From positions 992,001-1,056,000 of the forward strand of contig NC_011126.1 in assembly GCF_000020785.1 (NCBI RefSeq): a stretch of 64,000 nucleotides of DNA. Reading direction: 5' to 3'. A model generated the notes under the pieces. The model worked only from the letters and a program-made list of their open reading frames with translations. It did no database searches and was not told the origin of the DNA. Shown one piece after another: positions 3,503 to 17,211 of the stretch (position 1 is its first letter; each line of letters starts with the position of its first letter). The translations under genes and the position numbers were made by a program. This stretch comes from Hydrogenobaculum sp. Y04AAS1. GTDB taxonomy: Bacteria; Aquificota; Aquificia; Aquificales; Aquificaceae.

Positions 3503-4453
3503 CTAAATGAATAAATCATGAATAGTCTTCACTTTCTCTAACACATCCTCTGGTTTTACAAAATCAAGACATTGATAGGTTTTTGTTTTACAGCTTTTAG
3601 GATTTATAGAACAAGGGTGACAATATAACTTAGGTTCTAAATAAAACCCATTTATAGGATAAAACCCATAAGAGGCTGAAGTAGCACAATATATTGAAAT
3701 AGCTTTTATACCAAAGGCGTTTGCTATATGAACAGAAGAAGAATCGTTTGCAATCATAAGAGAAGAAAGACTCGAAGTAGCTAAAAACTCTTTCAAAGAA
3801 GTTAAACCTGATAAGTTTAAAACATTTTTTATATTGTCAAAAGCCTCTAAACGTTTATCAGATAATATAACTACAGGTTTATCAAGAGATTTTGAGAGCT
3901 TTACAAAGTGCTCTTGTTTCCAGGTTTTTAAGAAAAAATTTGACGTAGGAGATATTGCTATAAAAGAAAGTGGTAAATTGAACTTTCTTTTCACAGCTTC
4001 TTTTAGATCTTCTTCTATATATAGCTTTGGTGGTTTTGGGTTTAGTTTTTTTGATATCAAAAGCTCCAAAAGTTTTATATTTCTTTCTATCTCGTGAATA
4101 CCTTTTTCTTGGTAAGGTATAAGGTCTGTATATAAAAATTTTCCTTCTGATCTATCAAAACCTATCCGCTTTTTAATACCAGATAAATATAATATCAAGG
4201 CGCTTCTAAAAGATACATGTAAAGACAAAACAGCATCGTAACCTTTTATGGCTTTTATGATATCAAAAGAGTCTTTCAACGACCTATCGTAAGGGTAAAG
4301 CTCTATAGGGTAACCATAGAAAATATCTTTTATGAAAGGCCTTCCTACAAAACCTACGTTGTGTTCTCCGAAAATCTCAACAGCATTTTGCAAAAGGGAT
4401 GTAGCCAGCACCACATCCCCTAAGTAAGCTGTTTGCCAAACAAGTACTTTCAA
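3503..4453 (-). CDS. Glycosyltransferase family 9, ADP-heptose:LPS heptosyltransferase-like
   Basis: Predicted to add heptose or a related sugar to the LPS core on the inner face of the cytoplasmic membrane. The 316-residue protein has the GT9 N-terminal signature LGDVVLATSLL (residues 11-21) and the C-terminal donor-site segment IANDSSSVHIANAFG. A cysteine-rich tail (CHPCSINPKSC) is also found in some WaaF/RfaF homologues. It probably forms a transcription unit with the small anchored protein downstream of it on the minus strand side (4464-4892 precedes it). Exact sugar and acceptor are unknown. Confidence 0.85.
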   Translation of the reverse strand: MKVLVWQTAYLGDVVLATSLLQNAVEIFGEHNVGFVGRPFIKDIFYGYPIELYPYDRSLKDSFDIIKAIKGYDAVLSLHVSFRSALILYLSGIKKRIGFDRSEGKFLYTDLIPYQEKGIHEIERNIKLLELLISKKLNPKPPKLYIEEDLKEAVKRKFNLPLSFIAISPTSNFFLKTWKQEHFVKLSKSLDKPVVILSDKRLEAFDNIKNVLNLSGLTSLKEFLATSSLSSLMIANDSSSVHIANAFGIKAISIYCATSASYGFYPINGFYLEPKLYCHPCSINPKSCKTKTYQCLDFVKPEDVLEKVKTIHDLFI

Positions 4454-4463
4454 TAAACAAGCA

Positions 4464-4892
4464 CTAAAAACTTATGTTGGTTATCTTCCAAGAGTCGTTC
4501 TCTTTTGATACAGTAAAGGTAATATCACGTTCCATATGCTCGTTGTCTTTGGTTTCTAGCACAACCTTTACCTCAGAGTCTGAAATTTTTGATACGTTTT
4601 TAATCTTAAAAGATTTTACAAAAGACATCTGACCCTCCAAAGAAGCCCCCAAAGCTTCGTACGGCTTCATCTCCACTAAAGCAAGTGGTAATTTTAATTG
4701 GCTTTCTAAGCTTTCCCTTAGGCTTGGATCAAGCTTTCTTATAGCTTTCATAGGATGATGGTCTTTTAGATTAGCAACAAAATCCGATACTAAATCTCTA
4801 GATATTCCTTGAGGTGAAGACCCGCAAGCTCTAAAAAGCAAAAATACAGCCCCTAAGGCTACTATTCCTATAATAATTTTCTTCTTTGACAT
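4464..4892 (-). CDS. Small membrane-anchored or lipid-anchored protein of unknown function
   Basis: A 142-residue protein with a short hydrophobic N-terminus (KKIIIGIVALGAVFLLF) followed at once by ACGSS, which could be an atypical lipobox or a signal anchor. The remainder is a soluble alpha+beta domain; its C-terminal half, ending DSWKITNISF, is built like the NTF2-like domains of DUF4878-type lipoproteins, where a 'dg.WKi' strand ends the fold. That resemblance is by eye only. It begins 2 nt after the SudA-like gene and may belong to the end of that operon. Confidence 0.6.
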   Translation of the reverse strand: MSKKKIIIGIVALGAVFLLFRACGSSPQGISRDLVSDFVANLKDHHPMKAIRKLDPSLRESLESQLKLPLALVEMKPYEALGASLEGQMSFVKSFKIKNVSKISDSEVKVVLETKDNEHMERDITFTVSKENDSWKITNISF

Positions 4893-4893
4893 G

Positions 4894-6291
4894 CTATGAC
4901 CTCCTGGATTTATTAATAAGATAATCGTAAATATGCTTAGCCGCTTCTTTCCCCTCTTTCAAAGCTCTTACTACAGTATCACCGCCGTTTACCACATCCC
5001 CAGATGCAAATATACCATCAATAGAACACATATAATTTTGGTCCACTTCAAGAGTACCCCATTTTGTAGTCTTTAAGTTTAGTTCTTCAAAGGCTATAGG
5101 GTTCGGTTTTTGACCTATAGCCAACACCACAGCATCACAGTCTATAACAAACTCTGAGTTTGGTATCTCAACTGGTCTAGGTCTTCCTGACTCGTCTGGC
5201 TCGCCAAGCTCCATTCTTACACAAAGAAGACCTCTTGTATAACCGTTTTCATCTCCTATTATTTCTTTTGGTTGTGTAAGCCAATGTATTATGGCACCTT
5301 CTTCTTGAATGTGATCCCACTCTTCGTCTCTAGCTGATGAGGTTTCTCTGGTTCTTCTATAAACCACATGGGTTTCTATACCAAACCTTATGGCACTTAT
5401 AGCACAATCCACAGCGGTAAATCCACCACCTATTATGGCTACTTTTTTTATATCGGCCATTTGACAACCTAAAGCTATATTCATGAGAAATTCTATTGCA
5501 GAATATACATTTATAAGGTTGTCTCCTTTTATACCAAGATTTCCCCTACCAGCACCTACACCTATAAACACCGCATCAAAGTTTTCTTTTAATTCTTTGA
5601 AGGACATACTTCTTCCTACTACTATGCCAGTATGGAATGTTACGCCCATTTTTTTGAGTTTGTTTATTTCGTATTCTAGTATGGATTTATCAAGCCTTGC
5701 ATTTGGAATACCGTAAAACATCACACCACCAAGCTTAGGAAGCGCTTCGTAAACCTCAACATCTATACCTTTTCTAGCAAGTTCATAAGCACATCCTAAT
5801 GATGCTGGACCTGAGCCCACAATCGCAACTTTGTATCCTTTCTTTTCTTCTATATCTACTGAAGGTTCTATGCCAGATATCCTTACAAAATCTCCTACAA
5901 ACTTTTCTAAAGCCCCTATGTTAACAGGAAGGCCCTTGTTTCTCTTGTTTCTTACCGTATCAAAGTACAATATGCAAGCACCTTCGCATTGCCTTTCTTG
6001 AGGACATACCCTTCCACATATTGAGGGAAATATATCCGTTTGAGTGATTATCTTGTAAGCTTCCAATATGTTACCTTCCGCTATCTTCGATATAAAACCA
6101 GGTATGTCTACATTTATAGGACAACCTTTAATACATCTTTTATCTGCATCTTTGCAAAGTATACAACGCCTTGCCTCATCTATAGCTAAATTTATTGTAT
6201 AGCCAAGGGCATACTCTTCAAAGGTTTTTGTACGCTTCTCCACTGGCATTAAGACTTCTTGGTTTCTATCGTAATACCTAATTTTTTTCAT
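4894..6291 (-). CDS. NAD(P)H-dependent FAD/FeS oxidoreductase, GltA/SudA/NfnB-like large subunit
   Basis: A 465-residue glutamate-synthase-small-subunit-type flavoprotein. The N-terminal ferredoxin-like domain has cysteines in CILCKDADKRCIKGCP and CGRVCPQERQCEGAC; an FAD dinucleotide motif follows (AIVGSGPASLG, about residue 155), and an NADPH-binding motif (AIIGGGFTAVD, about residue 285). It ends in FASGDVVNGGDTVVRALKEG, typical of the family. The gene directly follows its likely partner (6295-7062); together they resemble NfnAB/SudAB, transhydrogenases or sulfide dehydrogenases able to bifurcate electrons between NADH, NADPH and ferredoxin. Its place at the end of the sHdr cluster suggests a role in electrons from sulfur oxidation; that role is inferred. 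Confidence 0.88.
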   Translation of the reverse strand: MKKIRYYDRNQEVLMPVEKRTKTFEEYALGYTINLAIDEARRCILCKDADKRCIKGCPINVDIPGFISKIAEGNILEAYKIITQTDIFPSICGRVCPQERQCEGACILYFDTVRNKRNKGLPVNIGALEKFVGDFVRISGIEPSVDIEEKKGYKVAIVGSGPASLGCAYELARKGIDVEVYEALPKLGGVMFYGIPNARLDKSILEYEINKLKKMGVTFHTGIVVGRSMSFKELKENFDAVFIGVGAGRGNLGIKGDNLINVYSAIEFLMNIALGCQMADIKKVAIIGGGFTAVDCAISAIRFGIETHVVYRRTRETSSARDEEWDHIQEEGAIIHWLTQPKEIIGDENGYTRGLLCVRMELGEPDESGRPRPVEIPNSEFVIDCDAVVLAIGQKPNPIAFEELNLKTTKWGTLEVDQNYMCSIDGIFASGDVVNGGDTVVRALKEGKEAAKHIYDYLINKSRRS

Positions 6292-6294
6292 GAC

Positions 6295-7062
6295 TCAACT
6301 CTTCCTAGAACGCACCAACACTTCTTTTAAAATTAGGTGCCTTCTGTTTAAATCATCAAAATCTATCTTGTTGGCTTCAAGCCAAGGCCCTTCTACGCAA
6401 GGGAGTTTAAGTTTGCCATCATATTGAATCCTGCAAGCCAAACAGAGCCCTACCGTACAAAGCATCCTTGTGATAACTGCACACAGAACATCTTTATCTT
6501 CATAAACACTAACTAACTCTTTAGCTAACTCGTTAGAACCAGCACTTATAACAACATCATATGGTTTCTCGATCTTACTAAAAGCCTCTATACTATCAAA
6601 CTCATAAACATGATCAAATATATCTGTATAGTTTTTCAAATCATCTAAACGCACAGCATCAGAATTTATGAAAGCAAGTTCTACTTTGTTTTTTGATTTT
6701 AGATGTTTTGCAACATTGTATATACCTGCAAAACCCCAATTTATACTGACAAATAGTATATTTTTATATTCTAGCTGAGGAAAAGGCTTTCCCGCTGGAC
6801 CTTCCACGTAATGCAACTTTTGCCCTGGCTTTACATTTTCAAAAGCCTCAGTCACCACCATATCATCAGATTTTTGCAATAAAAAAGAAACCGTACTGTG
6901 TTCTGCATCTGCACTCATGATAAAAATGGGTATTCTTTCTGGCTTTTCTTGATATTGCATGATAAAAAACTGACCAGGCTTTGCTTTTGAAAGATACAAA
7001 CTCTTTAGTGTTATTAGTTTTAGGCTTTTAGAGATATCTAAAACTTCTAATACTTCAGCCAT
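6295..7062 (-). CDS. Ferredoxin-NADP reductase-like FAD/[2Fe-2S] subunit, SudB/NfnA/PyrK-like
   Basis: A 255-residue protein: an FAD-binding beta barrel (residues 1-100, with QFFIMQYQEKPERIPI), an NAD-binding Rossmann part, and a C-terminal [2Fe-2S] site spaced C-x4-C-x2-C-x11-C in MLCTVGLCLACRI...LPC, as in PyrK, SudB and NfnA. It overlaps the end of the radical SAM gene by 8 nt and is followed after 3 nt by the large subunit, so co-translation is likely. The pair would form a soluble flavin-based complex. Which pyridine nucleotide and which ferredoxin it uses cannot be read from sequence. Confidence 0.85.
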   Translation of the reverse strand: MAEVLEVLDISKSLKLITLKSLYLSKAKPGQFFIMQYQEKPERIPIFIMSADAEHSTVSFLLQKSDDMVVTEAFENVKPGQKLHYVEGPAGKPFPQLEYKNILFVSINWGFAGIYNVAKHLKSKNKVELAFINSDAVRLDDLKNYTDIFDHVYEFDSIEAFSKIEKPYDVVISAGSNELAKELVSVYEDKDVLCAVITRMLCTVGLCLACRIQYDGKLKLPCVEGPWLEANKIDFDDLNRRHLILKEVLVRSRKS

Positions 7063-8053
7063 TCACAAAATCCCTAATGTCAAATATCACCGTAGAACAG
7101 CAGTTTGGAGATATATAAGGTTTCATGCCAAATTCCATGCTTTGAGATACTATGCCCTCTGCTGGAAAAGCTATACCATTTGCCCCTGCTAACATAGCGT
7201 ATGTATCAAAAGCCAAACGATACTCTCCCGCTGGTCTTGCACATCCTATTATTATAGGGTTTTTTGGCATTTTTTGCCTAGCGTAAAGTATCACCTCTGC
7301 AGCTTCTTCAGCACTTGGAGGTTTTATAAGCTGATATCTTGCGTTACCGTAGTAAGGCATAACCACTACAAGCACCAAAGCATCGGGATCATACTTTGAT
7401 ATTATGTCCACCGCGTTAAACTCACCTATGATCTTGCCGTAATGTAGGCCTATGATAATATGCGGCACTATTTTAAGGCCATGATCTTTTAAAAGTCTTA
7501 AGGATTCGTCGTAGTCTTTGGTGCTTTTGTGAGGAAGTTTATAAACCTTATGAATTGTTTCATCTTCACCTATAATATCTAAAAGAACAGCATCCACCTC
7601 AGCTTCTTTCAGCGTCTTAGCTAATCTTTCATCCACAAGGCCAACATGACATGTTACTATAAGTCCCAGCTCTTTTTTGGCATATATCATGGCATCTTTA
7701 TAGTCATATAGTTCCACAACGTTATCTTTGTTTGAACCTCCAGATATCAATATACCTCCAACGCCTGCTTCTTTTAAGTCCTCACAAACCCTTATAAGTT
7801 CTTCAGGTGAAGTGGCAGGTATCATATGATGCAATATTTTAGAAGCGCAGTGATCGCACATCAATTCGCACTTTTTTCCAGTTATAGATATATCTACAAA
7901 CCTTGGTTTGGAAACAGTTTTAAAATCCTCTACCTCGTAATGCTTAAAACCTGGCCCATAAAAAAATATATTGTTTCCAAAATGCTCCTCTTTTGTTTTA
8001 AGACCTGTTTTGAGCTTTTCTAAAAAAGCTTCATCTACTTCTATATCTATCAT
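7055..8053 (-). CDS. Radical SAM protein, probable LipS-type lipoyl synthase component
   Basis: A 332-residue radical SAM enzyme with the cluster motif C-x3-C-x2-C at C62, C66 and C69 (KKCELMCDHC). Further cysteines occur near the C-terminus (IIIGCARP and SPNCCST), as expected for a protein holding a second auxiliary cluster. In other sHdr organisms radical SAM proteins LipS1 and LipS2 sit beside lbpA and assemble lipoate on LbpA; position and size suggest this is one of them, but which one was not decided and no second copy or sLpl ligase is in this window. A biotin-synthase-like radical SAM enzyme of another function is the alternative. Confidence 0.75.
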   Translation of the reverse strand: MIDIEVDEAFLEKLKTGLKTKEEHFGNNIFFYGPGFKHYEVEDFKTVSKPRFVDISITGKKCELMCDHCASKILHHMIPATSPEELIRVCEDLKEAGVGGILISGGSNKDNVVELYDYKDAMIYAKKELGLIVTCHVGLVDERLAKTLKEAEVDAVLLDIIGEDETIHKVYKLPHKSTKDYDESLRLLKDHGLKIVPHIIIGLHYGKIIGEFNAVDIISKYDPDALVLVVVMPYYGNARYQLIKPPSAEEAAEVILYARQKMPKNPIIIGCARPAGEYRLAFDTYAMLAGANGIAFPAEGIVSQSMEFGMKPYISPNCCSTVIFDIRDFVNG

Positions 8054-8063
8054 AAATTCTACC

Positions 8064-8411
8064 TCAAAATGTTATTACTTTAGCACCTTGATCTATAAGT
8101 TCTAAAAGCTCTGGACCAATAGCCAAAACATTGATACCTTTTTCTTCGTTGTACTCCTTTTCCCCTAGCTTTGTAGAGTTGTTTATACAGGCCATTGTAG
8201 TAATGCCTTTTTCTAAAAGCTTATAAAACAAATCTTTTAAATGAGGTATATCCTCTATTTGCCTTGGTACCTTCACTCCGTCTGCCCAAAAGAAAAATCT
8301 AACATCAAATCTTGGATCCTCGGAGGCTCTTAAAGCAAACCTCATACTCATCTCTACTTTCAATTCACTTGTATTTACATCAGACATCAACACAATAGCT
8401 AGTTTCTTCAT
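8064..8411 (-). CDS. DsrE-family small sulfur-transfer protein
   Basis: A 115-residue DsrE-fold protein beginning KKLAIVLMSDVNTSELKV. A single cysteine region, TTMACINNSTKLG (C75), occupies the position where DsrE proteins carry their sulfur-binding cysteine. It lies between the second lbpA gene and the LipS-like gene. It is one of four DsrE-family genes in the cluster and is the most divergent from the others. A role in carrying persulfide sulfur is inferred from family and context. Confidence 0.72.
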   Translation of the reverse strand: MKKLAIVLMSDVNTSELKVEMSMRFALRASEDPRFDVRFFFWADGVKVPRQIEDIPHLKDLFYKLLEKGITTMACINNSTKLGEKEYNEEKGINVLAIGPELLELIDQGAKVITF

Positions 8412-8448
8412 TTAAAACACCATATACAATTAATTTTTAAATTTAGTA

Positions 8449-8471
8449 GCCCTACTCCAAAAGAGTAGGGC
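8449..8471 (-). terminator. Intercistronic hairpin between second lbpA and dsrE
   Basis: A perfect 9-bp stem GCCCTACTC/GAGTAGGGC with a 5-nt loop lies between the stop of the lbpA gene (8482) and the start of the next gene (8411). On the minus transcript it is followed by AT-rich sequence with no clean T run, so it is a weak terminator, attenuator or RNA-stabilising hairpin rather than a strong terminator. Confidence 0.6.
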
Positions 8472-8481
8472 ATAGATTATA

Positions 8482-8928
8482 TTAACCGCAGGAAATACCT
8501 TTTTCTTTTGCTATAGCACCTAACTTTTCTACGGCTTCTGAACCTTTAAGAAGAGTTGATACTTCTGATGGATTTGTAGGTTTTATTTTTGCTATCCAAC
8601 CAGCACCGTATGGATCGTCGTTAGCTAAAGCAGGATTTGCCTTTACTGTATCGTTTATCTCTACTACCTCACCACTTAACGGAGACGGCACTGGACCAAC
8701 CCATTTTCCGCTTTCTATGGTAGCGACGGACTTTCTTCTTTCCACAGTCTTACCTGGTTTTTTCGGTGTATAGGCCACCAATCTACCAGCCATAGCTGCA
8801 GCTACAGAAGTGAGGCCCACTGTGAAGGTGCCATCACCGTTGTCTTTTGCCCATGTAAAGGCGTTGGCCTCTGCGTCAACGTCGTAAAGTAAATCCTCTG
8901 GGATATTGCACCCGTTTACTACTGCCAT
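8482..8928 (-). CDS. lbpA: Lipoate-binding protein of the sHdr pathway, second copy
   Basis: A 148-residue GcvH-like protein. The lipoyl-lysine is predicted as K75 in the turn ATIESGKWVGPVP; the C-terminal stretch DDPYGAGWIAKIKP is typical of GcvH/LbpA proteins. No glycine cleavage genes (gcvP, gcvT) are near, and the sHdr neighbourhood identifies it as LbpA, a carrier of sulfur intermediates bound to lipoate. It differs clearly from the other copy at 9635-10111, so the two are not a recent duplication. A strong ribosome-binding site (AAGGAGG) precedes the ATG. Confidence 0.9.
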   Translation of the reverse strand: MAVVNGCNIPEDLLYDVDAEANAFTWAKDNGDGTFTVGLTSVAAAMAGRLVAYTPKKPGKTVERRKSVATIESGKWVGPVPSPLSGEVVEINDTVKANPALANDDPYGAGWIAKIKPTNPSEVSTLLKGSEAVEKLGAIAKEKGISCG

Positions 8929-8979
8929 ATATACCTCCTTAATAAATTATTTTCTAAATTAATGTTTCCTTCTAAAAGC

Positions 8980-9381
8980 TTAAAAGATTATTACCTTATC
9001 AGCTTCCAAAGATTTTTGAGCAAATTCCCCAGCCGGAACTACACCATCTAACAACGGTATTAACTCATCTTCCTTTAAACCCGACGAGTCTATAGCCTGC
9101 TTGCAAGAATAAAGTTTAACACCGGCAGCTTTAGCATCTTTCATAAATTCATATACTGATTTTGGTTTTTGACTTGCTACACAAGAATCCCCACCAGGGT
9201 ATATAGACTCTGGAACACCCTTTCGTATTAGATTTGTGCCATCCATATTAAAAAATATCTCTACTATTGCATCGTTTGAAGCCATCAAAGCCCCTATAAA
9301 AAACGGTGTAGCGCATCTATGAGGTGTTTTTGGCCCACTGGTCATAAGTATTAAAACTTTTTGGCCTTCTACTTCCATCAT
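8980..9381 (-). CDS. DsrE-family sulfur-transfer protein
   Basis: A 133-residue DsrE-fold protein with the conserved cysteine C93 in KLYSCKQAIDSSGL, plus C23 and C67. It overlaps the thioredoxin-like gene start-to-stop by 4 nt (ATGA), so the two are translationally coupled. It sits between two lbpA genes. Transfer of persulfide sulfur to or from TusA, sHdr or LbpA is the likely role; the exact step is not shown. Confidence 0.82.
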   Translation of the reverse strand: MMEVEGQKVLILMTSGPKTPHRCATPFFIGALMASNDAIVEIFFNMDGTNLIRKGVPESIYPGGDSCVASQKPKSVYEFMKDAKAAGVKLYSCKQAIDSSGLKEDELIPLLDGVVPAGEFAQKSLEADKVIIF

Positions 9382-9638
9382 GAGTTAAGCACCTTCCTTA
9401 CCTCTTCTTCTGAGGGTACTCCTACAAATGTTAGTTTGCCATTTATAATAGTGGATGGAACACTTCTAACTATTAATTTTTTAGCCCAAGCCCTACCTTC
9501 TGGTTGAGCCACATCAAGCACTTCGTATTTAAATCCAAGCTCAGCTTGTAATTTCTGATAAAGAGCATCTGCATCTGGACATGTAGCACACCACTGAGAT
9601 ACTAAAAGTATAACATGTTTATCAGAAGCTGCCATCAT
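9378..9638 (-). CDS. Small thioredoxin/glutaredoxin-fold protein with CATC motif
   Basis: An 86-residue single-domain thioredoxin-like protein. The redox motif is CATC in LLVSQWCATCPDA and the cis-proline loop is VRSVPSTIING. The start was moved from 9653 to the ATG at 9638, which overlaps the lbpA stop (ATGA) and has GAGGTG a few bases upstream; the ATG at 9635 is an equally good choice. Sandwiched between lbpA and dsrE, it may reduce the disulfide of LbpA or of a DsrE persulfide. That role is inferred from position. Confidence 0.82.
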   Translation of the reverse strand: MMAASDKHVILLVSQWCATCPDADALYQKLQAELGFKYEVLDVAQPEGRAWAKKLIVRSVPSTIINGKLTFVGVPSEEEVRKVLNS

Positions 9639-10111
9639 GTACACCTCATACAAATAATATCTTCTCTATCTATATACTCTTTCATTTTTCTAATAGCTTC
9701 TTCACCAGTTACCAAATCTTTTAAATCTCTTTCTAAATTTACAGGTTTTAAAGTTACTATCCAACCTCTACCATATGGATCGTAATTTATTATATCAGCT
9801 TGCTCTAGCAACTCTTCGTTTCTTCTTACTACTTCACCCTCTACGATACAAGGTATAGGACCAGCCCATTTACCACTCTCTAACGATGCCACTGGTTTAC
9901 CTTTAGGTATTTTCTTACCGACATCTTTTATGCGTATATGTAGAAGCTTACCAGATCTGGTTTGACCTACATCTGTAAGACCGTACGTTACATTACCGTC
10001 TGGTTCTAATCTAATCCACACTTGATTTTCTATATCGTAATACAAATCTTTTGGTATCAAACAACCGTTATGATCAACTATATTTTCATCTACATTACCA
10101 TGTAAATCCAT
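9635..10111 (-). CDS. lbpA: Lipoate-binding protein of the sHdr pathway, first copy
   Basis: A 158-residue GcvH-like protein. The lipoyl-lysine is predicted as K81 in ASLESGKWAGPIP, and YDPYGRGWIVTLKP matches the C-terminal family segment. It directly follows sHdrB2, the usual place of lbpA in sHdr operons. It ends in the cysteine-containing tail ICMRCT, which the second copy lacks (that one ends GISCG). The stop overlaps the start of the thioredoxin-like gene. Confidence 0.92.
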   Translation of the reverse strand: MDLHGNVDENIVDHNGCLIPKDLYYDIENQVWIRLEPDGNVTYGLTDVGQTRSGKLLHIRIKDVGKKIPKGKPVASLESGKWAGPIPCIVEGEVVRRNEELLEQADIINYDPYGRGWIVTLKPVNLERDLKDLVTGEEAIRKMKEYIDREDIICMRCT

Positions 10112-10138
10112 GCTTATACACCTCTAGATCTCTAAATC

Positions 10139-10160
10139 GCCCCCAAGAAATATAGGGGGC
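10139..10160 (-). other. Hairpin between sHdrB2 and lbpA
   Basis: Six G-C pairs (GCCCCC/GGGGGC) close a 10-nt AT-rich loop in the 60-bp gap between sHdrB2 (ends 10172) and lbpA (starts 10111). No T run follows on the minus transcript, so RNA processing, stabilisation or partial attenuation is more likely than termination. Confidence 0.55.
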
Positions 10161-10171
10161 AACTTAGTATA

Positions 10172-11134
10172 TCATGCCAAACCGTATCTTTTCAATACTG
10201 GTAATGGATCAGATAAATTGTCTTTTAGCTTTACTTCAGAGGCGCTTCTTCCCAATGCAAGACCTAAGAGTTGAGTAAAATAAACGGCTGGTACATCAAC
10301 ATCTGGAACACCTTTTAACATTAATCTATGCCTATACATTTCCAAAGAAGCATGGCAAAGTGGACATTCGGTAGCTATAACATCGGCGCCATTTCTTTTA
10401 GCGTTTTGCAATATCATCATAACAAATTTTTCTGACACTGACTCATCCGACAAGGAGTGAGGACCACCGCAACATTGGGTATGCATAGGTTCAAAATCTA
10501 CACTAGTAGCTCCGGCTGCTTCTAAGAGTTTGTTTTGGAAAAATGGATGTTCATCATCATCAGCCGTTGCTCTTCTCATGGGTCTATCTTTATCTAAGTC
10601 CTGACCACCAGAGTGCGAATATGTCCTAGCATAGAAGTGCGGTCTTGTATATAGACAACCGTAGTAGTTGGCTACCTTTAAACCTTTTAAAGGTTTCTTG
10701 GTCTTTTCTTTTATTTTTTCTGGGCCAGCTTCTTCGTAAAGCCACTCTAAAGCATGATATGTCTCAGGTATTACATCCAAAGGATCCACACCGCCTTCTC
10801 TTAAAAGAGCATTTGTTTTAGTAAGCACAGAATTATCGGTGGTTAGAAAGTACCAAGCCCTTTGGAGTGAAAAAGAACAACCGTTACAAGGAGCCACTAT
10901 TACTTCATGTCCTTGTTTTCTAGCCAAAGACATATTTCTAGCGTTCATTAAAATGGTGCCCCAGAACGTTACATTTTTTGATTCCATTGCTCCGCAACAG
11001 TTGTAATCTTCTAAATAATCAAACTGTAACTCCAAATCTTTAGCTACCAGTCTTAAAGATACATCGTAAGCTCTAGCTGCACCTTCTAATGAGCAACCTG
11101 GGTAGTAAGCCACACGTTTACCTATAACACCCAT
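10172..11134 (-). CDS. hdrB2: sHdrB2, CCG-domain heterodisulfide reductase-like subunit
   Basis: A 320-residue protein with two cysteine-rich CCG domains. The first has C14, CCG at 46-48 and C83-x2-C86 (APCNGC); the second has YYGC, then TQCCGG and TECPLC. Both keep the full set of ligands that hold the non-cubane [4Fe-4S] clusters at the active site of HdrB. It is the sixth sHdr gene in the usual order C1-B1-A-hyp-C2-B2. The complex is thought to oxidise a protein- or lipoate-bound sulfur intermediate in the cytoplasm. Confidence 0.93.
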   Translation of the reverse strand: MGVIGKRVAYYPGCSLEGAARAYDVSLRLVAKDLELQFDYLEDYNCCGAMESKNVTFWGTILMNARNMSLARKQGHEVIVAPCNGCSFSLQRAWYFLTTDNSVLTKTNALLREGGVDPLDVIPETYHALEWLYEEAGPEKIKEKTKKPLKGLKVANYYGCLYTRPHFYARTYSHSGGQDLDKDRPMRRATADDDEHPFFQNKLLEAAGATSVDFEPMHTQCCGGPHSLSDESVSEKFVMMILQNAKRNGADVIATECPLCHASLEMYRHRLMLKGVPDVDVPAVYFTQLLGLALGRSASEVKLKDNLSDPLPVLKRYGLA

Positions 11135-11146
11135 GTAAAACCTCCT

Positions 11147-11908
11147 TTAATGAGTCATTATGCCTTCTTCTCTTATAACTCTTTCAAGAACTTGTTTGAA
11201 TCTATTCCAGTTTTGAGTTCTTGGATGTATCAACATATGTTTGGCATTTAATATCAAGAAATCTATGTTCATACCTTTCAACGGTTTGATAGCTAAGCTT
11301 TTTAACCAATCTGGCAAACCACCTGCAAAAGGTATTGGTTTCTTGAGGATTGGATCCTTCATTACATTAAAACCTTGTTTTTCCATCCATCCAAACAAAA
11401 GCTCTCCATCTTCTATACGTCCGTATTCTATGACACTTTCAGTAAAGAACTTGTCAAACTTTTTAGATGGGTACTCTTCTATAAGGCCTCTTTTTGACAT
11501 TTGATTTACTATTACCTTTAATACTTCCTCTACCAAAACGCCTTTTGGACATCTATGCGTACATTTGTGACAAGATACGCATCTCCATATTACATCTGCT
11601 CTTTTCTGCAACTCATCTAGCATACCTAACCTTGCTAAATATATGAAGTGTCTTGGGTTGTATTTCTCATCCCAATAGTTATGCACAGGACAGCTAGCTG
11701 TACAGTATGAGCACTGATAACACTGGTTTATCGTTTTTCCTTGGGGGTGGTTGATGATGTCTTTGGCAAAATCCAAATCGTAATCATCTATTACGCGAGG
11801 AAGTATTATAAGGTTCCAGTCTCCAGATGCATCAACACCGTCTATAACTATTCTGTCTTTCTTTATTATACGTTCTTGCTCTACAAGGCCACGTTCATGA
11901 ATAGCCAT
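11147..11908 (-). CDS. hdrC2: sHdrC2, iron-sulfur subunit
   Basis: A 253-residue electron-transfer subunit with two [4Fe-4S] motifs: CYQCSYCTASCP (C63, C66, C69, C73) and, about 40 residues on, CVSCHKCTHRCP. A helical C-terminal half follows. It lies 13 nt upstream of sHdrB2 and probably passes electrons between sHdrA and the sHdrB2 active-site clusters. Confidence 0.93.
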   Translation of the reverse strand: MAIHERGLVEQERIIKKDRIVIDGVDASGDWNLIILPRVIDDYDLDFAKDIINHPQGKTINQCYQCSYCTASCPVHNYWDEKYNPRHFIYLARLGMLDELQKRADVIWRCVSCHKCTHRCPKGVLVEEVLKVIVNQMSKRGLIEEYPSKKFDKFFTESVIEYGRIEDGELLFGWMEKQGFNVMKDPILKKPIPFAGGLPDWLKSLAIKPLKGMNIDFLILNAKHMLIHPRTQNWNRFKQVLERVIREEGIMTH

Positions 11909-11920
11909 AACAACCTCCTA

Positions 11921-12694
11921 TTAATAGGTAAAAGTTACTTCATCATCTCTTAAAACACCTAACAGACGTTTAGCGATAAAATCTGCAGGCGGGAAAAACC
12001 CTTTAGCACTATGCATTGTAGATAAGGTCATGTAATCAACGTAAGTACCATAAATCATAGCCAAAAAGATATCTACAAACAAAAATCCTCTCACTCTTAT
12101 ACCGAACTCCAGAAGCTTTTCGTAAACCTGAACATAGGTTTGATAAAAGTCTTCATACGTAGAGCCATACATCTCTCTGCCATGCCCATTTACTGGGGCT
12201 TCTTCTTTTAAGAACACAATAGCTCCACTTTCGGATTCCGGGTCCCATATCCAAGAGGTAAAAAGTATGTAATCTTCTGGAAACGTAAAATGTAGTATCT
12301 CTGCCGCAATATCCCTAGCGTTTTTCTTGCTTATGCCTCTTATTACATCCGTAAAAGCGTTAACCTTTTGTTCCCAAGAATCTGCTTTAGAATATAAAAG
12401 ATCGCTTATAGCTTTTTTGAGGTTGTTAACACCGGTCTCTTCCACTATCTTGTTTCTGAATCTTCTAGCTGGGTACATTCTGTAAAATACATCAAGCAAT
12501 TTGTCCTTGTCTATAGAAGCTAATCGCTCCTTTGAGAATGTCTCTCTAAAAAGATTTGATTTCTCAAGAACCCTAGAATAGAACTCTTGCGCTAGCTCTT
12601 CTCCATCTCCTAATATTTTTATTAAATAATCCCTTACTAAAAAGTCATCAAGAGGGGCCGCTTTGAACCCCTCGTTTGGTTTAATGTTGCTCAT
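11921..12694 (-). CDS. Conserved sHdr-associated protein ('hyp')
   Basis: A 257-residue soluble protein with no recognisable catalytic motif. It occupies the place of the 'hyp' gene that sits between hdrA and hdrC2 in sHdr operons of other sulfur oxidisers. It is rich in aromatic and charged residues and lacks CxxC pairs, so it is not expected to hold FeS clusters. Its start ATG is within the end of sHdrA (one-base overlap). It may be an assembly factor or a structural subunit; the function is unknown. Confidence 0.85.
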   Translation of the reverse strand: MSNIKPNEGFKAAPLDDFLVRDYLIKILGDGEELAQEFYSRVLEKSNLFRETFSKERLASIDKDKLLDVFYRMYPARRFRNKIVEETGVNNLKKAISDLLYSKADSWEQKVNAFTDVIRGISKKNARDIAAEILHFTFPEDYILFTSWIWDPESESGAIVFLKEEAPVNGHGREMYGSTYEDFYQTYVQVYEKLLEFGIRVRGFLFVDIFLAMIYGTYVDYMTLSTMHSAKGFFPPADFIAKRLLGVLRDDEVTFTY

Positions 12695-13752
12695 TATACA
12701 CTTACCTTAGCTCCTATAAAAGCTATTGCCTCTGCAGCAGCTGCTTCACCTTCAGACATAGAGGACTCTATATCTACCGGGCCTTTACAAGCGCCTGCTA
12801 TAAATATACCTTCTTTGTTAGATATTATATTTGAACCTGAATTGTCAGAAGGTATTAGGAATTTACTATCTTGATCTTGGTTTAAACCTAGTATCTTAGC
12901 AACCTTCTTAGTGCCTTCGGATGGTTCCATTCCAAGCACCAAAACTACTAAGTCCATTGGCACTTCTGATGGCCTTTGAACTATAGTGTCTTCGTGCTTT
13001 ACCACAAGTCTTCCATCTGACGGTCTAAAGGTTATTTCAGCTATTCTTCCTCTTACATATCTAACGCCAGCTTTTTCTTGAGGAGCCCAATAGAATGGGT
13101 ATTCCCAAGTACCATATGTTCTAACGTCCATATAATAGCAAAATACATCTACATCTGGATAATGTTCTCTTATCTCTGTACCTTGTAAACCAGAGAGAGC
13201 ACATCCGTATCTACAACAGTGTACATTTGATACACCTAATTGCCTATCTCTTGAACCAACACAAAATACAAATGCTACACGCTTAGGAAGTTGGCCGTTG
13301 GATGGTCTATAGAGCTTGCCTTGACGGGAAAACATTTGCTCTAACTCAAGGTTGGTTATTACATCTGGGAAAAGCCCATAACCGAGTTCACCCTTTCTTC
13401 TTGGATTAAAGTGTTGGAAACCTGTAGCCACTACTATAGCTCCAGCTTCTACAGTTTCGCCATTTGACAGTTTTACTTTGTAATTACCTGGCACGCCTTC
13501 ACAAGCTTCTACTTCTGTACCTAATTTGACTTTAACGTTTGGGTTCTTAGTTACTTCATCAATAACGGGGCCTAAAACTTGTGATGGTTTTAACTTTCTT
13601 GGAATAAGAGTATGGTAATCTTCCAATACCGGTCTACCACCTAGTTTTTGTTCCTTCTCCACTAAGATGGTAGATATACCTAATTTGCCAAGAGTTTTAG
13701 CTGCGGATACACCAGCAGGCCCGCCACCTATTACTAACACGTTCTTAGACAT
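12694..13752 (-). CDS. hdrA: sHdrA, FAD-containing subunit
   Basis: A 352-residue flavoprotein. The FAD motif VIGGGPAGVSAA lies at residues 6-17 and a second dinucleotide-type segment at VVATGFQHF. The [4Fe-4S] ligands are in FCVGSRD and VHCCRYGC; FIAGACKGPVDIESS near the C-terminus is typical of HdrA. Like other sHdrA proteins it is much shorter than methanogen HdrA, lacking the extra ferredoxin and N-terminal domains. It links the two B subunits through the C subunits, and its flavin would pass electrons on to an acceptor. Confidence 0.93.
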   Translation of the reverse strand: MSKNVLVIGGGPAGVSAAKTLGKLGISTILVEKEQKLGGRPVLEDYHTLIPRKLKPSQVLGPVIDEVTKNPNVKVKLGTEVEACEGVPGNYKVKLSNGETVEAGAIVVATGFQHFNPRRKGELGYGLFPDVITNLELEQMFSRQGKLYRPSNGQLPKRVAFVFCVGSRDRQLGVSNVHCCRYGCALSGLQGTEIREHYPDVDVFCYYMDVRTYGTWEYPFYWAPQEKAGVRYVRGRIAEITFRPSDGRLVVKHEDTIVQRPSEVPMDLVVLVLGMEPSEGTKKVAKILGLNQDQDSKFLIPSDNSGSNIISNKEGIFIAGACKGPVDIESSMSEGEAAAAEAIAFIGAKVSV

Positions 13753-13772
13753 ATATAACCTCCTAAGGTTTA

Positions 13773-15089
13773 TTAAGATCTAAACAATACCTTATCAGCC
13801 GTTGCACTTGCTCTTGGTTTGCCGTCGGATGTTCTGCTGTATGGTTCATACAAGTCATAGGTTTTAAAGAATTCTTGAAGTTCGTCGTGTTTGCCTGCTT
13901 TATCAAGCTCATTTATATATTTTACGGTGTCTTCCCACTCTTTTTTTAGCTCTTTCCAGTTGGTTATACCCATTTTTTCCAAAAGAGGTTCATAACTTGA
14001 GCAGTTCCAGTACAGCTGGACTATCTTGTACGGATGTGCACCGCAGGCTAAAGCTGAGAACATAACATCTGACATAACAGCTACCGGATAGTACATATCA
14101 TGAGCTTTGCCTATCCATTGATTCTTTTCGAAAGTTGTGGTACAACCAGTATCGTGAGTTACGATGAGGTCTGCCTTAGCATCCTCATATATTACCTTCA
14201 ACTTTCTATTTATAGCAAAAGACCTAGTAAACTCTCTTTCTGTCAATATATGCCTAAATCCAAAACCACAGCAATCATACCATGTGTAATAGTCAGCAAC
14301 TATAGCTCCCAATTCTTTTATAACAGCCGTAGATGCTGCTGGTCTTTGGCCTCCATATATTTCTGGGTCATATACGTAATCGTCAGCTATCATTTTCCAA
14401 ACGTGGCAAGCGTTGTGTATAGCAACTCTTACATTTGACACATCTATACCTCTTGGTTTACCTTCTTTTTCGTATAATTCTTTTATTTTATATCTGTTTG
14501 CATGTGTCCATTCTGAATAATGTACTACCTCTTGAGGTATCACCAATTCACCATTTGGTCCTAATCTACCCAACTTCTTCAATATAGGTCTTACAGCATC
14601 TCTAAGTTCTTTATTCATTATGAGTTGTTCTCTAGTTTCCTTGTAAGAACCAAATGAAGTACCACAGTGAATTAAAGGATAATAACCAGTCTTCCAAGCT
14701 TGGTGCATGTTTCTTAGCCATACAGCTGCCAAAGCCACTGGATTTGACGTACCAGAACCGTGATAGTTCCATGCGGTACAAGAAGTTTGGTGTGGTTCAT
14801 TTAGATAATCATATCCAAACTTGTTCATAAACCAGAATATAGATGCTGGATAACCGGGTATATTACCACATTGTCCACAAGATTTATGATGCCATAGTTT
14901 GTTGGTAGGCACAGTCTTTATACGACCTGTTCTTGTATAAACCTCTACAGGTTTATGTTCTTCGGTGATTCTATGTATAAGGATCTCGCCCTTTGCTTCC
15001 AATTCTTCCATGCGCTCAAATATTTCATCGTAATGAGCATGGTTGTTTTGAATTGGAAATTTGGTCTTGTCATATCTAAGTAAACTCAT
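13773..15089 (-). CDS. hdrB1: sHdrB1, CCG-type heterodisulfide reductase-like subunit
   Basis: A 438-residue HdrB-like subunit. The C-terminal domain keeps a CCG (WYDCCGFGF) followed by TGCTTTF, where the usual CxxC is CxxT. The N-terminal domain has CGQCGN, TSCTAWN and IHCGTSF, again without an intact CxxC. So neither domain has the full canonical ligand set that sHdrB2 has. It is longer than sHdrB2 by more than 100 residues, mainly in an extended helical tail. It lies between sHdrC1 and sHdrA and probably supports one cluster or has a structural role. Confidence 0.9.
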   Translation of the reverse strand: MSLLRYDKTKFPIQNNHAHYDEIFERMEELEAKGEILIHRITEEHKPVEVYTRTGRIKTVPTNKLWHHKSCGQCGNIPGYPASIFWFMNKFGYDYLNEPHQTSCTAWNYHGSGTSNPVALAAVWLRNMHQAWKTGYYPLIHCGTSFGSYKETREQLIMNKELRDAVRPILKKLGRLGPNGELVIPQEVVHYSEWTHANRYKIKELYEKEGKPRGIDVSNVRVAIHNACHVWKMIADDYVYDPEIYGGQRPAASTAVIKELGAIVADYYTWYDCCGFGFRHILTEREFTRSFAINRKLKVIYEDAKADLIVTHDTGCTTTFEKNQWIGKAHDMYYPVAVMSDVMFSALACGAHPYKIVQLYWNCSSYEPLLEKMGITNWKELKKEWEDTVKYINELDKAGKHDELQEFFKTYDLYEPYSRTSDGKPRASATADKVLFRS

Positions 15090-15109
15090 AAAACTAACCT
15101 CCTAAAATT

Positions 15110-15130
15110 TTTTTGGCACTATGCCAAAAA
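15110..15130 (-). other. Hairpin between sHdrC1 and sHdrB1
   Basis: A perfect 9-bp inverted repeat TTTTTGGCA/TGCCAAAAA with a 3-nt loop lies in the 50-bp gap between sHdrC1 and the ribosome-binding site of sHdrB1. In RNA it places A/T runs on both arms, so it could act as a leaky terminator or a processing site. Confidence 0.55.
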
Positions 15131-15139
15131 TTGCACAAA

Positions 15140-15862
15140 TCATTCTTCTTGCATGTCTTCCCAGCGCTCTTCGTTTTCTTCTACCATATCCATAATAACG
15201 TTGTAAAGGTTGGGGTCTATCTTTTCAAGCATATCAAATATACCTGTTTCTCTCCAAATACTGTAAAGCTCTATGGCAGTTTGAAGAGACACTTCCCAAG
15301 CTGTTTTTACAGCTTTACCTACATCAAAGGGTATAGCCATACGTTTTGCTCTCAGATTTTCCATATTGTCAGCCATCTTTGGACCCCAGTCTGGGAAAAA
15401 GTCCGGTTGAAGCATATCCGCTGAGAGCTGGTTACCAGTGGTCATAACCTTAAGCAACACACGACCGTATGGTTTGAGAAGATCTTTGGTTGCGTCAAAG
15501 GCGTTTCTAACGGCTACTTCTCTCATTATAGCCACAAGACCACCTGGGTTGTTTACGAATGGACACCTTATCCAACAGGTGAAGCATTGAGAACAAGCCC
15601 ATATATATTCGTGCATCATATCATAAAGCACTTCCACATCATCTTCCAAAAATCTTTGCACTATCTCTCTGGGTGAATAATCAAAAAATCTGTTGGATGG
15701 GCATGATGCAGTGCAAACACCGCAGTTTAAGCACCCAAATATATATTCGTGATAGCGAAAGTCTGACTTGACTTCCTCTACAATTCTAACCTTCTCTTCC
15801 CATGGCACATCTTTTGTTTTCTGTGATATGGGAAGATTGTATCCATAAGCGTGACCATCCAT
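15140..15862 (-). CDS. hdrC1: sHdrC1, iron-sulfur subunit
   Basis: A 240-residue subunit with two [4Fe-4S] motifs: CLNCGVCTASCP (C44, C47, C50, C54) and CSQCFTCWIRCP. The acidic C-terminal tail ends EENEERWEDMQEE. It heads the sHdr core genes and follows a DsrE gene by 13 nt. It should relay electrons between sHdrB1 and sHdrA. Confidence 0.92.
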   Translation of the reverse strand: MDGHAYGYNLPISQKTKDVPWEEKVRIVEEVKSDFRYHEYIFGCLNCGVCTASCPSNRFFDYSPREIVQRFLEDDVEVLYDMMHEYIWACSQCFTCWIRCPFVNNPGGLVAIMREVAVRNAFDATKDLLKPYGRVLLKVMTTGNQLSADMLQPDFFPDWGPKMADNMENLRAKRMAIPFDVGKAVKTAWEVSLQTAIELYSIWRETGIFDMLEKIDPNLYNVIMDMVEENEERWEDMQEE

Positions 15863-15875
15863 AACAATTACCTCC

Positions 15876-16304
15876 TTAAAGGGTTATAACGGCGTACTCG
15901 CCACTCATTACTTTGTCTAAGAATGCCGCACCACCTATTATACCGTCGCAAAGCTCAGTATTGACATCCTCTCTCTTGTATTCTTCCGTCAAATCTAAAG
16001 ATGGTACACAAAGATATACCTTTACTCCTGCTTCTTTTGCCATTTTTATGAAATCATATACAGTTTGTTCTACACCAGGTCTTACTTTAACCTTTTTTGC
16101 ATTGTCTTTCATCAACAAGAATCCAGCCTCTGAAGTAATAACCATCTCTACTTCAAAGTCCATTGTTGTAGCCGCAGTAGCTAAGAAAAAAGGTGCACCC
16201 GCTTGAGGGTTTATAAGCTCACCAGTCACCGCATCGGCTCTTTCAAAAAATGGGACAGTTAAAATATAGAAAATAATCTTATCAAATCCATTTGGTACCG
16301 CCAT
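15876..16304 (-). CDS. DsrE-family sulfur-transfer protein upstream of sHdrC1
   Basis: A 142-residue DsrE-fold protein. The conserved cysteine is C99 in KVYLCVPSLDL, and a second (C118) lies in NTELCDGIIGG. The position directly before sHdrC1 is where dsrE3-type genes occur in other sHdr loci. It would shuttle sulfane sulfur with TusA. A strong GGAGAG ribosome-binding site precedes the ATG. Confidence 0.85.
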   Translation of the reverse strand: MAVPNGFDKIIFYILTVPFFERADAVTGELINPQAGAPFFLATAATTMDFEVEMVITSEAGFLLMKDNAKKVKVRPGVEQTVYDFIKMAKEAGVKVYLCVPSLDLTEEYKREDVNTELCDGIIGGAAFLDKVMSGEYAVITL

Positions 16305-16358
16305 AAATCTCTCCTTTAATAAGTTTAATCCTAAAATTTAAAAAATCAATTAAGATTT

Positions 16359-16390
16359 GCTTATAAGAATATAATAAAAATCTTATAAGC
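16359..16390 (-). other. Inverted repeat between the two leading dsrE genes
   Basis: A perfect 9-bp inverted repeat GCTTATAAG/CTTATAAGC with a 14-nt loop lies in the 129-bp gap between the DsrE3-like gene (ends 16434) and the next dsrE (starts 16304). It could be an RNA hairpin or a dimeric regulator-binding site in front of an internal promoter. Confidence 0.5.
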
Positions 16391-16433
16391 TTTTCACTAC
16401 AATTACACGCTATAACCAGTGCCATACTTTATC

Positions 16434-16967
16434 CTATACAAAAATTGTTATAGGTTTATCAGCTTCCAATATAAAATCAAAAAGCGTCATAGCACCGCCC
16501 GGAGGCTCCAAACCATCTATTAAATCTTCGTATTTATATCCGAAAAGATCCATAGTCATTTGGCAAGGTATCATTTTCACATCGGCTTCTTTACATAGTT
16601 TAAGAAGTTCTGGGATAGAGGCAACACCATGTTCTTTTATAGATTTTTTCATCATTTCAGTCATTAAATCCGTCATTCCTGGTATTACACCCATTAGCTG
16701 AGGAGGACCTGGTATAAAGTTTGACACACTTTTAAGAAAAGGAAACTTTTCTTCCATAGAAGGTGGGAAGGCCATGGGCATAGCCGGGTTTCCAACGGGA
16801 GCCAACTTTAACTGGTTTACCTTTTCCTTATGTACTATATTTAAGCCGTAAAACGTAAAGAATATGGCTGTTTCTAAACCCATCGAAGCACCTACTGATG
16901 CTAGTATCAATGGCGGATATGCCATATCTAACGTACCTTTTGTGGCTATTATGGCCAATCTTTCCAT
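16434..16967 (-). CDS. DsrE3-like sulfur carrier (DsrE/F/peroxiredoxin-like family)
   Basis: A 177-residue protein with the extended DsrE3-type fold: a hydrophobic N-terminal half (MERLAIIATKGTLDMAYPPL) and the conserved cysteine C135 in KMIPCQMTMDLFGY, plus C125 ten residues before. A methionine- and proline-rich insertion of about 60 residues lies between the fold halves. It follows tusA by 10 nt, the tusA-dsrE3 pairing seen in many sulfur oxidisers, where DsrE3 and TusA exchange persulfide sulfur. Confidence 0.87.
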   Translation of the reverse strand: MERLAIIATKGTLDMAYPPLILASVGASMGLETAIFFTFYGLNIVHKEKVNQLKLAPVGNPAMPMAFPPSMEEKFPFLKSVSNFIPGPPQLMGVIPGMTDLMTEMMKKSIKEHGVASIPELLKLCKEADVKMIPCQMTMDLFGYKYEDLIDGLEPPGGAMTLFDFILEADKPITIFV

Positions 16968-16977
16968 AGCAAACTCC

Positions 16978-17211
16978 TTACTTTTTCTTTAGATAGAATA
17001 TAATTTTTCCACCTTCTTCTACAGTTTCTAGTAGCTCATCACCAGTTCTTTTACAATAAGCTGGTATGTCTGCTTTTGCTCCAGGGTCTGTGGTGATAAG
17101 TTCCAAAATTTGACCAGATGACATTTCTGCCATTTCTTTTTTGGTTTTAAGTACCGGTAAAGGACAATTGAGACCAGATGCATCTAAAGTTCTGTCTGCT
17201 TTCACAGCCAT
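16978..17211 (-). CDS. tusA: TusA-family sulfur carrier protein
   Basis: A 77-residue SirA/TusA protein with the sulfur-binding cysteine C16 in LDASGLNCPLPVLKTKK (CPxP motif). It is the first gene of the sulfur-oxidation cluster as transcribed, has an AGGAGG ribosome-binding site, and is paired with dsrE3. In this setting it most likely delivers sulfane sulfur to the sHdr system rather than serving tRNA thiolation. Confidence 0.93.
   Translation of the reverse strand: MAVKADRTLDASGLNCPLPVLKTKKEMAEMSSGQILELITTDPGAKADIPAYCKRTGDELLETVEEGGKIIFYLKKK

Follow-up and report, generated by a model that had tools for sequence, protein, structure and literature searches.

SudB-SudA, an Nfn/Xfn-like flavoprotein pair beside a type I sHdr-LbpA locus in Hydrogenobaculum sp. 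Y04AAS1

The destination of the electrons from the sulfur-oxidizing sHdr complex has been left open in the literature; a dihydrolipoamide dehydrogenase has been proposed, and no such gene is apparent in the bacterial clusters. A locus of Hydrogenobaculum sp. Y04AAS1 raises the question of whether a flavoprotein pair could take this place. In the window analyzed here, a stretch of 64,000 nucleotides (NC_011126.1, positions 992,001 to 1,056,000) from a closed genome of 1,559,514 bases, the sHdr genes, their sulfur and lipoate carriers, and a gene pair related to the Nfn enzymes, sudB-sudA, are encoded on the minus strand (17211 to 4894; all coordinates refer to the window unless stated otherwise). 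An earlier note, made from the sequence alone, had taken this stretch as one integrated run from sulfur delivery to electron disposal. Every gene that it named is present in this one direction, with support from Pfam, NCBIfam, and PDB, and its gene reading is very good; the integrated run is a claim beyond the evidence. We favor, with a probability of roughly 0.65, a type I sHdr-LbpA locus that would act in the cytoplasm, oxidizing sulfane sulfur to sulfite, and that has the Sud pair as a neighboring general redox enzyme.

The sHdr core and its sulfur carriers

Type I sHdr is defined by the genes shdrC1B1AHC2B2 in a single syntenic cluster (PMC11582611), and this is the arrangement found at 15862-10172. 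The core encodes sHdrC1, an iron-sulfur electron carrier (15140-15862; HdrC model, 94.3 bits, and synteny); sHdrB1, the proposed catalytic subunit (13773-15089; PF02754 and the HdrB model at 92 bits); sHdrA, the FAD iron-sulfur subunit (12694-13752; 255.8 bits with the HdrA2 model, of which only a part is covered); the "hyp" protein sHdrH (11921-12694; 257 residues); sHdrC2 (11147-11908; Fer4 domains and synteny); and sHdrB2 (10172-11134; two CCG domains and 135.7 bits with the HdrB model). C2 and B2 are separate open reading frames without a fused B3, which does not fit type II, where a fused B3 is found with etfAB; likewise, no Etf gene was found within the run. Judged by its genes, the locus belongs to the type I sHdr sulfur-oxidation systems and includes the sulfur carriers as well as two lipoate carriers.

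The gene content is conserved in the family far beyond chance. sHdrB1 was found in 52 of the 64 Aquificaceae genomes and in none from the other families of the phylum. Labeling the genera g1 (Hydrogenobaculum itself) to g11, we compared gene order between the window and 20 further loci from eight genera (in all g1, g2, g3, g4, g6, g8, g9, g10, and g11). Wherever the contig extends far enough, the order tusA, dsrE-A, dsrE-B, C1, B1, A, H, C2, B2, dsrE-C, lbpA-b is identical and, small losses aside, the run minus dsrE-D and the Sud pair is common to the Aquificaceae genera. As an aside, sHdrB1 of one genome, G001, lies in separate pieces (L047:5031-6374), through a frameshift or a sequencing error.

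Within the core, sHdrH is the least familiar protein. It has no sequence relative in Pfam, NCBIfam, or PDB, where matches were at chance level, and its relatives occupy the same position in the loci of other phyla. The predicted model is all-helical and confident (predicted local distance difference test [pLDDT], 91.7; predicted template-modeling score, 0.90). No PDB fold matched it below an E value of 0.4, and the model may represent a new fold. Residues that are invariant over 39 sequences include R78, H135, W148, D208, Y215, and Y218.

The sulfur relay comprises TusA and four DsrE proteins. The tusA gene (16978-17211; 77 residues; PF01206, 91.5 bits) heads the conserved run in the Aquificaceae. 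All four DsrE proteins score above the gathering threshold of PF02635 or PF13686 and carry a cysteine at the aligned position. A DsrE2/DsrE3-type sulfurtransferase is encoded by dsrE-A (16434-16967; 177 residues; PF13686, 162.5 bits), the orthologues of which in Acidithiobacillus-type loci are flanked by tusA and C1. The product of dsrE-B (15876-16304; 142 residues; PF02635, above the cut-off) is 48% identical to that of the gene preceding C1 in a Hyphomicrobium-type locus (L201), and an orthologue of dsrE-C (8980-9381; 133 residues; PF02635, 58.6 bits) lies between the two lbpA genes of Acidithiobacillus-type loci. The fourth, dsrE-D (8064-8411; 115 residues; PF02635, 33 bits against a cut-off of 22.7), is confined to the five Hydrogenobaculum genomes among 136 from the Aquificota and gave only chance-level matches in a PDB sequence search. 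Hence, the impression that the number of DsrE genes stands out is borne out for this fourth gene, which we infer to have been added to the sulfur relay at the level of the genus, but had to be given up for the other three, which are ordinary for the family and each of which is matched by a gene of sHdr loci in other phyla. Elsewhere in the same genome, at 533.9-535.7 kb (L113:13887-15687) and about 5 kb from lipS2, DsrE, tusA-like, and flavoprotein genes form a second run; the flavoprotein has a sulfide:quinone-type look, judged by its N terminus.

That the core order was known from other sulfur oxidizers, as the earlier note had stated, is confirmed by a scan of named genomes, which yielded 513 sHdrB1 relatives; the best 80 loci were examined, 49 of them from outside the Aquificota. 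The same order recurs in Acidithiobacillus and Sulfuriferula, where the loci read tusA, dsrE-A, core, lbpA-a, dsrE-C, lbpA-b, lipS1, ligase, lipS2. Hyphomicrobium-type loci have dsrE-B ahead of C1 and a single lbpA-b-like gene, and Sulfobacillus-type loci have a thioredoxin-like gene 3' of lbpA, as here. Since these parts are found separately in other phyla, the Aquificaceae set combines them.

Lipoate carriers and their assembly

Both lipoate carrier genes, lbpA-a (9635-10111; PF01597, 127.6 bits) and lbpA-b (8482-8928; PF01597, 134.7 bits), encode the lipoyl lysine site ESGKW as well as the conserved cysteines that mark LbpA, with the N-terminal one in NGC and the C-terminal ones in CMRCT or SCG. 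By best match, the first is LbpA1-like and the second LbpA2-like: lbpA-a is the orthologue of the first lbpA gene in Acidithiobacillus-type loci, and lbpA-b is the best match of the single gene in Hyphomicrobium-type loci. In Hyphomicrobium, LbpA has been shown to be essential (PMC6067878). Overlapping lbpA-a is a gene for a thioredoxin-like protein with a WCATC motif (9378-9653; PF13192, Thioredoxin_3). The two co-occur across the Aquificaceae genera and are both absent in g2, g3, and g11. Given this overlap and co-occurrence and the corresponding gene of the Sulfobacillus-type loci, the protein is a possible redox partner of the LbpA-a-type carrier.

The radical S-adenosylmethionine (SAM) gene that had been called LipS-like is lipS1 (7055-8053), a lipoyl synthase subunit gene that belongs to the LipS1 family with a score of 232.9 bits (NCBIfam NF053742), just above the curated cut-off of 230. 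It is present in a single copy in the genome; in most genera it comes after lbpA-b, and in g11 it lies elsewhere. The other candidates for carrier maturation are encoded away from the locus, LipS2 at 528 kb, a lipoate ligase at 878 kb, and a relative of LipT (35% identity) at 749 kb of the genome. At 204 bits, the LipS2 candidate stays under its cut-off (270); LipS2 is clearly its best family, and no LipS2 of the Aquificota attains 270. LipA was not found in the genome. Its model matches only the biotin synthase gene, which leaves LipS1/LipS2 as apparently the one lipoyl synthase of this genome. According to the 2018 paper, the maturation genes in Aquificae lie strictly in the shdr-lbpA operon (PMC6067878); here only lipS1 is local. 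With LipS2, ligase, and LipT encoded elsewhere, we consequently rejected the idea of a single run holding every maturation gene, and of the functions that the earlier note had placed in a single run, sulfur delivery and the lipoate carriers are there while carrier assembly is there only in part. A different situation is seen in g10, where LipS1, LipS2, and LipT were not detected in the sHdr-bearing genomes (L063, L117, and L118). In L063, a canonical LipA is found above the cut-off on the same contig as sHdr and near its genes, and with the other three undetected, LipA may mature LbpA in this organism.

Following the published biochemistry of the family, the locus might work as follows. The sHdr complex would receive persulfide sulfur through a relay of DsrE and TusA proteins, the lipoate of LbpA would serve as swinging arm and electron acceptor, and sHdrB, sHdrC, and sHdrA would hand the electrons on. 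The lipoate itself would be made by LipS1 together with the LipS2, ligase, and LipT encoded elsewhere.

SudB-SudA: general redox enzyme or electron exit

The flavoprotein pair had been described as Nfn-like, and rightly so. The product of sudA (4894-6291), an Nfn-like large subunit, scores 629.4 bits with TIGR01316 (cut-off, 472) and matches NfnI in PDB and NfnB of Thermotoga maritima with E values of about 1e-118. The product of sudB (6295-7062), a small subunit of the FAD and 2Fe-2S type, was identified by PDB sequence matches among the Nfn small subunits (5jca, 4ylf, and 5vj7) and by its predicted fold (pLDDT, 92.4), with Pyrococcus Xfn and NfnI as best PDB matches at a template-modeling score of 0.88 each. 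Using the Nfn motif definitions of PMC6405883, we find in SudA the NfnB cluster motif GRVCPQExQCx3C, as GRVCPQERQCEGAC. The motif RCx2Cx4Cx3CPV is not matched exactly, in that RCILCKDADKRCIKGCPI has six residues in place of four, and GALEKF follows after a longer stretch in place of Gx2ER. Overall, both 4Fe-4S cluster motifs are present with small differences. SudB carries the 2Fe-2S site of NfnA, CTVGLCLACRIQYDGKLKLPC, and lacks the NAD(H)-binding loop GGGxG, with FVSINWGFAGIYNV at that site. The aligned SudB proteins of the Aquificaceae have NWGFAG, SWGIAP, or similar there; a relative from the Desulfurobacteriaceae retains GGGLG. The sudB-sudA pair most likely encodes a general redox enzyme of the NADP/ferredoxin type.

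What, then, does the position of the pair tell us? The lipS1 and sudB genes overlap by 8 bases, and the block of sudB, sudA, DUF4878, and heptosyltransferase genes is probably on the same transcript as lipS1. However, genes on this strand follow one another with gaps no larger than 129 bases beyond the point where the sulfur genes end; the genes assigned to 4894-17211 are there, and the run is longer at both ends. Past sudA it continues through a DUF4878 gene (4464-4892; PF12870), a heptosyltransferase-like gene (3503-4453), and genes for DsbC-like, glycogen-phosphorylase-like, and TruA proteins, and past tusA through DUF507 and atpC genes (for heptosyltransferase, glycogen phosphorylase, TruA, and AtpC, the assignment was made by reading the sequences). 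Promoter- and terminator-like sites in the run were not above their frequency in shuffled sequences. With a run that goes on into unrelated genes and a scan at the shuffled level, strand and spacing are weak evidence in this region.

The distribution of the pair points away from sHdr. SudA is encoded in 40 Aquificaceae genomes, and in only 8 of them, five of Hydrogenobaculum and three of g10, is it counted in the sHdr run; this includes one Hydrogenobaculum draft (G031) with SudB joined to the run and SudA on a separate contig, for which the linkage is presumed. In the other 32, SudA is on another contig or separated from sHdr by 180 kb or more, or the genome yielded no sHdrB1. Homologues are thus mostly away from sHdr, the outcome that the earlier note had itself named as refuting its reading; it speaks against the pair as part of the sHdr run and leaves "electron disposal" as an unproven hypothesis. 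In g4, g6, g9, and g11, the DUF4878 and heptosyltransferase genes seen here likewise come after SudA, far from sHdr. We therefore take this part of the window to show an older block, in which sudB-sudA-DUF4878-heptosyltransferase is by its gene neighborhood the ancestral unit, now abutting lipS1; neither of the two ancestral sudA neighbors is a sulfur gene. Conversely, none of the 13 g3 genomes with sHdrB1 yielded SudA or SudB (thresholds, 1e-60 and 1e-8). SudB was not detected in the 49 sHdr loci from outside the Aquificota, which gave one weak SudA match (25% identity); several of these contigs are short, which makes the count of pairs beside these loci a lower limit. In the open-access literature, we found no direct report of Nfn genes in sHdr clusters.

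Could the linkage nevertheless be old? In an ingroup tree built from eleven proteins of the cluster, g10 groups with g7, g2, g3, and g11 (support, 97), apart from Hydrogenobaculum; an earlier rooted tree with distant outgroups left g1 and g10 unplaced (supports, 36 to 49). The two genes of the pair lie on different contigs in g7, and sHdr genes are on neither of them. On this basis, two joinings are simpler than one joining followed by at least three losses, and it seems that the pair came to lie with sHdr on two occasions, in Hydrogenobaculum and in the uncultured genus g10, with an old linkage as a possible alternative. A separate event is also suggested by the arrangement in g10, where the pair lies directly 3' of lbpA-b and is not followed by DUF4878.

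Two observations weigh against a mere neighbor. In two genera that group separately, the pair stands directly within the run, for which chance is hard to invoke, and in the Hydrogenobaculum genomes compared, lipS1 and sudB have stayed in tight contact. A real functional link of the pair to sHdr or its lipoate machinery is possible, if rather doubtful in our estimate; LipS1 was not found in g10, which makes a link via LipS1 alone unlikely.

Such a link might consist in SudB-SudA being the electron exit of sHdr in Hydrogenobaculum and g10, which we hold to be unlikely. Electrons would pass from sHdr or dihydrolipoyl-LbpA to SudB, taking the place of NADH, and SudA would hand them to NADP and ferredoxin, possibly with bifurcation and sparing reverse electron flow. 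Xfn/NfnII enzymes are published as having no NAD activity and an unknown third partner, and SudB resembles the Xfn of Pyrococcus, a top fold match, in the missing GGGxG loop; but that loop is altered also in relatives whose pair is unlinked. Placement within the sHdr run in two separate genera favors the exit as well, but has to be set against the unlinked majority and the absence of detected pairs in sHdr-bearing g3 genomes and beside the loci of other phyla. The exit is also favored by the 4Fe-4S motifs kept in SudA and by the proposal of the LbpA authors that dihydrolipoamide gives low-potential electrons; on the other side, dihydrolipoyl dehydrogenase-like enzymes are present. More speculative again, and improbable to our minds, is the specific proposal that SudB-SudA is an Xfn-type enzyme with the sHdr complex or dihydrolipoyl-LbpA as its third partner, bringing sulfur electrons straight to NADPH and ferredoxin in these two genera. 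Very improbable, finally, is a role as low-potential electron source for the radical SAM proteins LipS1 and LipS2, since the need of such enzymes for a reductant and the position of the pair directly 3' of lipS1, with its 8-base overlap, are offset by the flavoprotein LipT suggested for that role in published work and present as a relative in this genome, by the g10 pair next to lbpA where LipS1, LipS2, and LipT were not found, by other genera with lipS1 and no adjoining pair, and by g3 with lipS1 and neither SudA nor SudB found.

We thus retain the general redox enzyme as the preferred reading of SudB-SudA. If the pair were the acceptor after all, it would answer where sHdr electrons go and provide Xfn-like enzymes with an identified substrate; if it is not, the locus illustrates that close spacing and a shared strand are weak evidence of joint function in compact genomes. 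In a g9 genome, sudB was seen directly beside a dihydrolipoyl dehydrogenase gene (L127:9504-11689; 436.7 bits).

Comparison with known systems

With Nfn and the Xfn/NfnII enzymes of Thermotoga and Pyrococcus, the Sud pair shares the two subunits, the 4Fe-4S motifs of the large subunit, and the fold and 2Fe-2S site of the small one. It differs in that SudB is without the canonical NAD loop, which Pyrococcus Xfn likewise lacks, in that SudA is longer after the second cluster motif, and in its position beside sHdr genes. For the LipS1/LipS2-sLpl(AB)-LipT system (PMC10332631), the genome holds a candidate for each of the four components; in contrast to that system, they are scattered over the genome, and LipS2 is under its cut-off. 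The type I sHdr-LbpA loci of Hyphomicrobium, Acidithiobacillus, and the Aquificaceae have in common with the present locus C1-B1-A-H-C2-B2, TusA, DsrE, LbpA, LipS1, and the gene order. What sets this locus apart from them is the fourth DsrE, the thioredoxin-like gene paired with lbpA-a, and the abutting Nfn-like pair, as well as LipS2, ligase, and LipT being encoded elsewhere. Quatrini et al. drew an hdr cluster of Hydrogenobaculum sp. Y04AAS1 in 2009 (PMC2754497), probably this very locus, from an identical or very closely related strain; the figure legend lists Hdr, Rhd, TusA, DsrE, and Sat, and does not discuss the extra DsrE, LipS1, or the flavoprotein pair. In summary, this is a known system, largely published for Hydrogenobaculum, to which the genus-specific fourth DsrE and the neighboring Nfn/Xfn-like pair are the additions.

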